NCBI GenBank assembly: GCA_016193395.1
Contig: JACPSH010000024.1
Coordinates: 1 to 46,664 of the forward strand
Direction of reading: 5' to 3'
From: Gammaproteobacteria bacterium
GTDB taxonomy: Bacteria; Pseudomonadota; Gammaproteobacteria; Eutrophobiales; Eutrophobiaceae
DNA: 46,664 bases
The position numbers and the translations under genes are program-made. Below are positions 23,896-45,639 of this stretch, one piece after another. Below the pieces are notes generated by a model. The model did not search any database. It had not been told where the DNA came from and worked only from the letters and a program-made list of their open reading frames with translations. Positions within the stretch are counted from its first letter, which is position 1, and each line of letters begins with the position of its first letter.

Positions 23896-23972
23896 AGGCG
23901 CGTAGCTCAGCTGGTTAGAGCACCACCTTGACATGGTGGGGGTCGTTGGTTCGAGTCCAATCGCGCCTACCA
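23896..23972 (+). tRNA. tRNA-Val (GAC)
   Basis: 77-nt cloverleaf. Acceptor arms AGGCGCG and CGCGCCT pair, anticodon stem CCACC/GGTGG encloses loop TTGACAT with anticodon GAC, the T-loop is TTCGAGT, and CCA is encoded. The body is nearly that of E. coli tRNA-Val(GAC). A hairpin-array repeat begins 9 bp downstream. Confidence 0.96.
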
Positions 23973-23980
23973 TTGTTCTC

Positions 23981-24094
23981 CCCGGAAAAGGCCGTCCATG
24001 GCCTTTTCCGGGACGGAACGCGAAAAGTGTGATTTTCGCGTTCCTTCGTTCCGCAATCGCAGGGCGATTGCAGAACGCCGTACCTCCTGTACGG
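23981..24094. repeat. hairpin-array repeat, copy 1
   Basis: Four hairpins run head to tail. CCCGGAAAAGGCC (23981-23993) pairs with 24000-24012 around GTCCAT. GGAACGCGAAAA (24015-24026) pairs with 24033-24044 around GTGTGA. GCAATCGC (24053-24060) pairs with 24064-24071 around AGG. CCGTAC (24078-24083) pairs with 24089-24094 around CTCCT. The second, third and fourth modules recur in the same order in the array at 45394-45639. The array separates tRNA-Val from the thrS leader; the first hairpin could also act as a processing or termination structure, although no T-run follows. Confidence 0.75.
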
Positions 24095-24116
24095 AGTAGC
24101 ACCGTTTGAACTCTGC

Positions 24117-24168
24117 GCGGCCTATTGTAGGGGCCGCTGGAACGCAAGTGACCTCTTGTGCGGGTCAC
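24117..24168 (+). promoter_or_regulatory. thrS translational operator with two tRNA-Thr anticodon-arm mimics
   Basis: Two hairpins of the same design precede the thrS ribosome binding site. The first has GCGGCC (24117-24122) pairing with GGCCGC (24132-24137), closed by a U-G pair around the 7-nt loop ATTGTAG. The second has GTGACC (24148-24153) pairing with GGTCAC (24163-24168), again closed by U-G around CTTGTGC. In both 7-nt loops position 33 is U and positions 34-36 read UGU, a threonine anticodon. The AAGGAG site is at 24180-24185. This matches the E. coli principle in which ThrRS binds anticodon-like operator domains and blocks ribosome binding. The structures are seen; repression is inferred. 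Confidence 0.68.
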
Positions 24169-24191
24169 CTCTGTATTTTAAGGAGCGAAAC

Positions 24192-26117
24192 ATGCCGAGA
24201 ATCACGCTGCCCGATGGCTTGCAGCGCACTTACCCGGAACCCGTCACGGCCGTCGAGGTTGCGGCCGACATCGGCCCTGGCCTGGCGAAAGCCACGCTCG
24301 CCGTCGAAGTGGATGGCAAGCTTCGCGACGCGGACTTCCTCATTCGGGATGACGCAAAGCTGCGTGTCATCACGGAGCGCGATCCGGAAGGGCTGCAGAT
24401 CATCCGGCATTCCTGCGCACACCTGCTTGCGCAGGCGGTCAAACAGCTGTTCCCGGAAGCCCAGGTCACCATCGGGCCGGTGGTGGAAGACGGCTTCTAC
24501 TACGATTTCGCGTTTCCGCGCCCGTTCACTCCGGAGGACCTCGAGGCCATCGAGGCGCGGATGAAGGAACTGGCGCGCCAGGACCTGGTGGTGTCCCACC
24601 AGGTCATCGACCGTTCCCGGGCGATCGCTTTTTTCCGTTCGGCGGGGGAGGAATACAAGGCGCGGATCATCGAGTCCATCCCGGAGGCCGAACCGCTCAC
24701 CCTGTATTCGCAGGGGGACTTCACCGATCTGTGCCGCGGGCCGCACGTGCCGAGCACGGGCCGGTTGAAGGCCTTCAAGCTCACCAAGCTCGCCGGGGCC
24801 TACTGGCGCGGCGATTCGCGCAACGAGATGCTGCAGCGGATCTACGGTACTGCCTGGCCGGACAAGAAGGCGCTGAAAGAATACCTGCAGCGTCTGGCCG
24901 AGGCCGAGAAGCGCGATCACCGCAAGATCGGACGCCGGCTCGGGCTGTTCCATTTCCAGCCCGAGGCGCCTGGCATGGTGTTCTGGCACGACCACGGCTG
25001 GCGCGTTTACCAGGAAATCGAGAACTACATCCGGGCCCAATTGCAGAGCCGCGGCTACCAGGAAGTCCGCACGCCGCAGATCATCGACCGCTCGCTGTGG
25101 GAGAAGTCCGGTCACATCTCCAAGTTCGGCGAGGTGATGTTCATGACTCAATCCGAGGAGCGGGAGTTCGCCATCAAGCCGATGAATTGTCCGGCGCACA
25201 TCCAGATTTTCAATCAGGGTCTGAAAAGCTACCGCGATCTGCCGCTGCGCATGTCCGAATTCGGCTCCTGCCACCGCAATGAGCCCTCCGGCGCGCTCCA
25301 TGGCCTGCTCCGCGTGCGCGGCTTCACCCAGGACGATGCCCATATCTTCTGCACCGAGGGTCAGATTCAGGACGAAGTCAGCGGGCTGATAGACCTGGTC
25401 TTCGCGGTCTACCGCGACTTCGGTTTCAGCGACGTGCAGATCCGCCTGGCCACGCGGCCGGAAAATCGGGTCGGGTCGGACGAGCTCTGGGACCAGGCGG
25501 AAAACGCCCTGCGCGCCACACTGGAGGCGACCAAACTGGAGTGGAGCCTGAACCCCGGGGATGGGGCGTTCTACGGGCCGAAGATCGATTTTTCCCTGCG
25601 CGATTCGATCGGCCGTGTCTGGCAGCTCGGCACGATCCAGCTCGACTTTTCGATGCCCGCGCGCCTGGATGCCAGTTACGTGGCGCCGGACGGCAGCCGC
25701 AAAGTCCCGGTGATGATCCACCGCGCGGTCCTGGGCTCTCTGGAGCGCTTCATCGGCGTCCTGATCGAGCACCATGCCGGGGCGCTCCCGCTCTGGCTTG
25801 CGCCGTTGCAGGCCGTGGTCCTGAGCCTGACGGAAAGGCAGGCGGAGGCGGCTTCCACCGTTGCAGAAATCCTGAAAAATCAAGGCTTCAGGGTTGAGTC
25901 CGACTTGAGAAATGAAACCATCAGCCTTAAAATCCGCGAACACGCAATGCAGCGCGTTCCCTACCTGCTGATCGTCGGGGCGCGCGAAGCGGAAAACCGG
26001 ACCGTGGCCGTGCGTACGCGCAGCGGCGAGGACCTGGGGGCGATGCCGTTGGAGCAATTCCTCAGTCGTCTTCGCAACGAGATCGCGTGCCGCGGCCGAA
26101 ATGTTTTGGAGGGATAG
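24192..26117 (+). CDS. thrS: threonyl-tRNA synthetase
   Basis: 641 aa from ATG 24192, with AAGGAG six bases upstream; the open frame extends to 24156 without support. Domain order is TGS (1-60), the editing domain with [24 protein letters not shown], the class II catalytic core and the anticodon-binding domain. The core has [56 protein letters not shown], including the zinc-site Cys. The last ~100 residues bind the anticodon. It charges tRNA-Thr and probably represses its own translation through the leader hairpins. First gene of thrS-infC-rpmI-rplT-pheST-ihfA. Confidence 0.98.
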
Positions 26118-26120
26118 AAG

Positions 26121-26636
26121 ATCGCACTGGAAAAACAGAACCGTCTGAACGAGGAAATCAACGCACGGGAAGTGCGATTGATTGGCACAACAGGGGAACA
26201 GATCGGGATCGTGTCCCTGAACCAGGCCCAGACGATGGCGCAGGAAGCGGAACTGGACCTCGTGGAGCTGGTGCCGAACGCGAGCCCGCCTGTCTGCCGC
26301 ATCATGGACTACGGTAAATTCCTGTTCGATCAGAGCAAAAAGAAACAGGCGGCGAAGCGGAAACAGAAACAGATCCAGGTCAAGGAAATCAAGTTTCGCC
26401 CCGGCACGGAGGAAGGGGACTACCAGATCAAGCTGCGCAACATCATTCGTTTCCTGACAAACGGGGACAAGGTCAAGGTGACGCTGCGCTTTCGCGGGCG
26501 CGAGATGGTGCATAAAGAGCTGGGCAGCAAGATGCTCGACAGGATCGAGTTGGACCTGGGCCCGTACGGGATCATCGAGCAGCATCCCAAGCTGGAGGGC
26601 CGGCAGATGATCATGGTCATGGCGCCTAAGCGTTGA
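26121..26636 (+). CDS. infC: translation initiation factor IF-3, ATC start
   Basis: 171 aa starting at ATC 26121. GGAGGG (26108-26113) is seven bases upstream, and the predicted start [22 protein letters not shown] fits the IF-3 N-terminus. The first standard start in frame is GTG 26172, which would cut off the conserved INxEI segment. [25 protein letters not shown] marks the N-domain end and linker, and [19 protein letters not shown] the C-domain. Rare AUU or AUC starts on infC are well known and let IF-3 repress its own mRNA. The start is three bases after the thrS stop. Confidence 0.95.
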
Positions 26637-40273: not shown

Positions 40274-40342
40274 GCGGGGACCGGATGTTGTGACGCCGCG
40301 GCGCGCGCGTTGGAGCGTGTTATTATACAGCATACAAGTGCA

Positions 40343-42346
<2,004 letters not shown>

Positions 42347-45393: not shown

Positions 45394-45639
45394 GCTCTGA
45401 ACAAGTCCGTCCGGGACTTGTCAGAGCACGGCAGAAATGTGCTGCTGCGATTTCTGCATTCCCGCCATCCGTGGCGGTCAGCGCGAAAAGTGTGATTTTC
45501 GCTTTCCTTCATTTTCCAATCGCTTACGCGATCGGAACGCAGAAAGCCGCTCCTGCGCCTTCTGCATTCCCGCCATCCATGGCGGTCATGGCCGTACGTC
45601 CTTGTACGGCAGGAACCTCTGAACTTGTTCAGAGGTTCC
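45394..45639. repeat. hairpin-array repeat, copy 3 (nine hairpins)
   Basis: The gap from 45346 to 45677 is filled by nine consecutive hairpins; 45346-45393 shows nothing. They are: 45394-45427 (ACAAGTCC around GTCCG), 45431-45457, 45462-45477 (CCGCCA around TCCG), 45483-45502 (GCGAAAA around GTGTGA), 45519-45532, 45539-45565, 45570-45585 (CCGCCA around TCCA), 45591-45610 (GCCGTAC around GTCCTT), and 45612-45639 (12-bp stem GGAACCTCTGAA around CTTG). Modules shared with copy 1 occur in the same order. The pair GCAGAA-type plus CCGCCA-type hairpins occurs twice and looks inserted. Confidence 0.85.

Follow-up and report, generated by a model that had tools for sequence, protein, structure and literature searches.

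Tandem threonine anticodon-arm mimics in a Eutrophobiaceae thrS leader point to a compact ThrRS operator

Results

The thrS locus

We analyzed a 46,664-nt stretch of DNA (the window) from a Gammaproteobacteria bacterium of the Eutrophobiaceae (GCA_016193395.1, contig JACPSH010000024.1, positions 1 to 46,664, forward strand). The window contains uvrB, a malic enzyme gene, tRNA-Val(GAC), thrS, infC, a ribosomal protein gene (rplT type), pheS and pheT; the gene names were read from the ORF translations, and thrS was additionally confirmed. The thrS gene (24192..26117, + strand; ATG at 24192) encodes a 641-aa ThrRS with TGS, SAD editing, class II core and anticodon-binding domains, the presumed repressor in what follows. 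All four domains are present, 369 of its 641 residues are identical to those of the E. coli enzyme, and its close relatives in the PDB include E. coli ThrRS core structures, among them 1kog, which we take to be the complex of the E. coli enzyme with its operator.

Upstream of thrS lie tRNA-Val(GAC) (23896-23972) and, between the two genes, a dispersed palindromic repeat (23973-24115), which partially matches 17 other places in the genome, one of them in the window at 45482-45523. A CCGUAC-CUCCU-GUACGG hairpin of this repeat could pair with the Shine-Dalgarno (SD) sequence of thrS. The repeat also gave a sub-threshold Rfam match to RsmW on the minus strand (23975-24101; 36.7 bits with a gathering score of 52, E 7.5e-5), which is probably due to its GGA-containing hairpins; six other loci with repeat copies gave no RsmW match. 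A tRNA-Val gene stands directly 5' of thrS in most family leaders and in many other gammaproteobacteria, co-transcription of the two genes is possible, and a scan for sigma-70 promoters from tRNA-Val to thrS in the window found none. Downstream of thrS, infC probably starts at a non-standard AUC at 26121 with GGAGGG upstream, the listed GTG ORF at 26172 being likely too short; infC of E. coli also has a non-standard start, AUU. A TPP riboswitch is located at 40336-40428 (Rfam RF00059, 76.1 bits).

Two anticodon-arm mimics precede the Shine-Dalgarno sequence

The thrS leader holds two hairpins on the + strand. Hairpin A (24117..24137) reads GCGGCCU-AUUGUAG-GGGCCGC, with its stem at 24117-24123/24131-24137, its loop at 24124-24130 and UGU at 24126-24128. 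After a 10-nt linker (24138..24147) follows hairpin B (24148..24168), which reads GUGACCU-CUUGUGC-GGGUCAC, with its loop at 24155-24161 and UGU at 24157-24159. In each, six Watson-Crick pairs closed by a U-G pair make up a 7-bp stem, and the 7-nt loop has U33 followed by UGU at positions 34-36, so that direct reading bears out, at the same coordinates, the pair of putative Thr anticodon-arm mimics described in the initial annotation. The loop of the genome's own tRNA-Thr(UGU) is CUUGUAA, compared with CUUGUGC in hairpin B and AUUGUAG in hairpin A. Hairpin B is followed by a 3' flank, CUCUG (24169..24173), placed by an alignment of 92 elements, and ends 11 nt before the SD sequence AAGGAG (24180..24185, read directly), the presumed target of occlusion. 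Below an internal loop, two bases of the linker, C24145 and A24146, probably form pairs with G24173 and U24172, respectively.

When the 219-nt stretch from tRNA-Val to thrS was shuffled with its dinucleotides preserved, one such hairpin appeared in 123 of 20,000 sequences and two in none, in line with the earlier impression that the duplicated design is clearer than chance. The folding energy of the leader is not unusual relative to shuffles (z 0.07). In single-sequence folding, hairpin A has a pairing probability of 0.94-1.0 and hairpin B one of ~0.45 to 0.92, depending on the stretch folded; competing folds, some joining the SD sequence to the upstream CUCCU repeat, are also allowed. Because the leader is no more stable than its shuffles and the pairing of hairpin B varies with the stretch, the case made here rests on conservation and not on folding energy. 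Rfam searches at gathering and permissive thresholds (E up to 10) returned no family for the window hairpins, and thrS leaders of this type may therefore go unannotated.

Hairpin B corresponds to domain 2 of the E. coli operator

In E. coli, ThrRS binds the domain 2 hairpin of the thrS operator as a mimic of the anticodon arm and thereby blocks 30S binding (PMC11088916, PMC3858243, PMC9976931). The E. coli K-12 leader reads GUGAUCU-UUCGUGU-GGGUCAC-CACUG, with AAGGA 10 nt past the stem, and hairpin B aligns with domain 2 without gaps. The alignment makes hairpin B a homologue of that domain, and the homology extends to the 3' flank (CUCUG here, CACUG there).

We searched for further elements with R1, a covariance model of the hairpin B element. 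The family comparison took in every family genome with a match to thrS, 40 in total; two of them were set aside because what they show of thrS is limited to 3' fragments (residues 147-640 and 202-640). R1 matches upstream of thrS in each of the 38 genomes with an accessible thrS 5' end, so relatives that keep thrS without the hairpins, which had been named as the finding that would speak against the operator, did not turn up for hairpin B. The copy in the window is somewhat divergent, with CUCUG for CACUG and 38.2 bits versus 41-49 in most relatives. Across the class, 51 of 149 sampled genomes contain strong matches (E 1.7e-6 or better), and the 50 besides the window's own all lie directly before thrS, as checked one by one. 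No thrS follows four other matches (L201, L202, L204 and L205; E 4e-4 or worse), which were taken as chance. The element is not universal, since it is missing from betaproteobacterial leaders and from several others of the wider set. Five leaders of the Methylophaga type (L006, L007, L009, L014 and L032) carry a shortened GGCC-CUUUGUAU-CGGYC hairpin without CACUG (R1 14.2 bits), which may be a cut-down version of the operator. In L099 (G017) and L107 (G015), extra sequence of about 160 nt and 25 nt, respectively, separates the operator hairpin from the start codon of thrS. We found no report on the class-wide distribution of this operator in the open-access literature, though one may exist. 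The proposal that the E. coli-type mechanism extends to this lineage is supported in that hairpin B matches domain 2 in sequence, but the element is not special to the lineage, being found in many gammaproteobacterial families.

The loop is Thr-specific and the stem covaries

A profile that ignores the loop also finds the leaders and gave 104 distinct elements. G35-U36 is present in all 104 and U33 in 94, position 37 is a purine in every element, and any of the four bases can stand at position 34 (C 47, U 33, G 18, A 6). G35-U36 is the part common to all Thr anticodons, and this pattern is what would be expected if ThrRS reads the two bases that they share. The stem shows both-side changes in five of nine pairs (42 cells versus 8.1 in shuffles, with none of 500 shuffles as high), including U-A/C-G, C-G/U-A and G-C/A-U replacements. 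Two further pairs, C2-G30 and A3-U29, lie below the internal loop, with a few U-A and U-G changes at C2-G30 as support. Invariant G35-U36 next to a free position 34, together with the conserved place upstream of thrS, argues that hairpin B is an old, selected anticodon mimic for ThrRS, spread over many gammaproteobacterial families.

The 3' flank is nearly as constant: CACU occurs in 89 of 92 aligned elements, usually followed by G, and alignment column 28, the second C of CACUG, is C in all 92. E. coli strains evolved in the presence of the ThrRS inhibitor borrelidin have been reported to carry a G-to-A SNP at genome position 1,802,589, which the authors propose, as a proposal only, to reduce or abolish autorepression (PMC13148393). 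By our own column mapping, the SNP is a C-to-U change at column 28. That it falls on an invariant column suggests that the CACUG flank matters for repression.

Hairpin A is confined to a small clade

Of the family leaders, just three have a second UGU hairpin, those of the window genome, G004 and G005, and the ThrRS tree unites these genomes in a single clade with strong support. Hairpin A, which was outside the training set of R1, scores 20.4 bits (E 0.0017). Its stem sequence differs among the three genomes while pairing is kept (GGCCC/GGGCC in G004, GGCUC/GAGCC in G005), and the UGU loops are intact in both relatives. The CACUG flank is lost from hairpin A in the window. The upstream copy in G004, in contrast, resembles the flank of hairpin B (GGGCCACCAAUGA versus GGGYCACCACUGA) and has a profile score of 12.5, far above background; on these grounds hairpin A is most likely a tandem duplicate of hairpin B, and we regard it as a recent, lineage-specific addition. 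The pair had initially been likened to the two operator domains of E. coli. This stands for hairpin B, which corresponds to domain 2, but not for hairpin A, which is recent, restricted to three family genomes, separated by a 10-nt linker and not simply domain 4.

Extra hairpins were also observed in seven other leaders (L030, L171, L182, L186, L187, L193 and L203), those of L187, L193 and L203 being recognized by eye and carrying a bulge, G33 or closing mismatches. In all ten multi-hairpin leaders, neighboring mimics are 31-37 nt apart from loop to loop. The leader L203 (G085) has three successive Thr-anticodon hairpins (CGU, GGU, CGU). Upstream UNGUR loops with a stem occur in 6 leaders, with 0.31 expected and a maximum of 3 in 300 shuffles; in a scan without the R37 restriction, GU loops were weakly enriched, partly swamped by tRNA-Val arms further upstream. 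Comparable second copies occur in no fewer than six other families and keep a nearly uniform spacing, so that the two-site design of E. coli recurs in compact form. A quick ThrRS tree of all sampled rows with hairpin B counts 8 changes between one- and two-mimic states, gains and losses pooled.

The main rival to the operator reading of the whole leader is that hairpin B alone is functional, with hairpin A a tandem duplicate that is neutral or in decay, which we consider possible but distinctly the less probable. Hairpin A scores low and has no CACUG flank, it is absent from all other family leaders, and the majority of leaders in the class sample contain one canonical hairpin, where single means no canonical second mimic, as our scans miss E. 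coli domain 4 with its long stem and larger loop. Moreover, no more than 28-60 nt separate the end of tRNA-Val from the B element in several leaders of the family, so that a domain 4 of the E. coli kind would hardly fit. This rival, however, sits poorly with the perfect 7-bp stem, U33 and UGU that hairpin A has kept in the window, with the changed but paired stems in G004 and G005, and with second mimics that recur at the same spacing in other families.

Other readings of the leader

A terminator scan flagged hairpin B plus CTCTGTATTT as terminator-like, and the leader might accordingly be an intrinsic terminator or attenuator that stops transcription before thrS. This is very improbable, because the U stretch does not adjoin the B stem and is missing in relatives, where CACUGA and A-rich sequence follow, and because a terminator has no need of the conserved G35-U36; a U run directly after the stem and conserved in relatives is thus not found. 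Still less credible is a T-box riboswitch sensing uncharged tRNA-Thr. T-box leaders are known upstream of aminoacyl-tRNA synthetase genes in other phyla, but here no T-box family matched at gathering or at E up to 10, the loops hold the Thr anticodon itself where a T-box would hold the codon, and the leader has no antiterminator domain.

Equally remote is an origin by chance or from the palindromic repeats just upstream, given that the segment 24085-24191, both hairpins included, occurs just once in the genome, which led us to reject a dispersed-repeat origin of hairpin A, that A and B lie in different upstream sequence in G004 and G005, and that the deep conservation of hairpin B contradicts chance.

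Discussion

We propose that the thrS leader is very probably a translational operator at which ThrRS represses its own synthesis by binding hairpin B and probably hairpin A. Free ThrRS would bind hairpin B, and probably also hairpin A, through its anticodon-binding domain as it does the anticodon arm of tRNA-Thr, reading G35-U36, and the bound enzyme would keep the 30S subunit off the AAGGAG downstream. Translation of thrS would then fall when ThrRS is in excess of tRNA-Thr and rise again when tRNA-Thr takes the enzyme away. For the E. coli operator, control is reported to pass to MetRS once the loops are changed to CAU. Hairpin A would probably offer a second contact to the dimeric ThrRS, one subunit per hairpin, or raise its local concentration. 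As the 10-nt linker is much shorter than the 31 nt of E. coli, one dimer holding both hairpins is only a guess.

The element behind the textbook case of tRNA mimicry in E. coli thus appears to be both ancient and widespread, and its signature is clear: the wobble position is free, both Thr identity bases are fixed and the CACUG flank is nearly fixed. We regard as evenly balanced the broader proposal that the ancestral gammaproteobacterial ThrRS operator was a single mimic, that two- and three-site operators arose repeatedly, the compact ones for the most part through tandem copying of domain 2 with a constant spacing of 31-37 nt that fits the ThrRS dimer, and that the symmetrical operator of E. 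coli is one late solution among several. If this is true, operator copy number would tune repression. Leaders with one, two and three hairpins offer natural variants for asking whether a dimeric repressor needs two sites.

Among known systems, the mRNA elements by which yeast aminoacyl-tRNA synthetases are bound (PMC6542539, PMC9956033) likewise imitate the anticodon arm of the synthetase's own tRNA, but they are eukaryotic and unrelated in RNA, and hence an analogue without kinship. The single-hairpin thrS leaders of the same family and of other gammaproteobacteria share hairpin B and the CACUG flank directly before the SD sequence; they have no canonical second mimic, and several family members have little room between tRNA-Val and hairpin B. 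The compact tandem leaders of other families share at least two Thr-anticodon hairpins 31-37 nt apart, the last being the conserved hairpin B, while their loops are GGU, CGU, AGU or UGU and they stand apart from the window clade on the ThrRS tree.

The window leader has the features of a domain-2-type operator, namely a site before the SD sequence, a 7-nt NGU loop with U33, homology to domain 2 with CUCUG for CACUG, and a ThrRS with an anticodon-binding domain. In both the window and E. coli, a full-length ThrRS with TGS, editing, catalytic and anticodon domains is preceded by two mimics in total, of which the 7-bp/7-nt one with U33-N34-G35-U36 shares the stem and CACUG flank sequence and lies at a similar distance from the SD sequence (11 nt here, 10 nt there). 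The two differ in that the E. coli loop has CGU where hairpin B has UGU, and in that the second E. coli mimic is the long-stem domain 4 whereas hairpin A is a B-type copy. The symmetrical four-domain layout of E. coli is matched by the upstream anticodon-like hairpin, but its U-rich single-stranded domain 3, which is part of the ribosome site, has no counterpart in the window. Because the linker is 10 nt here and 31 nt there, we do not assign the window leader to the four-domain layout; it is a probable operator of a known kind in a compact tandem arrangement.
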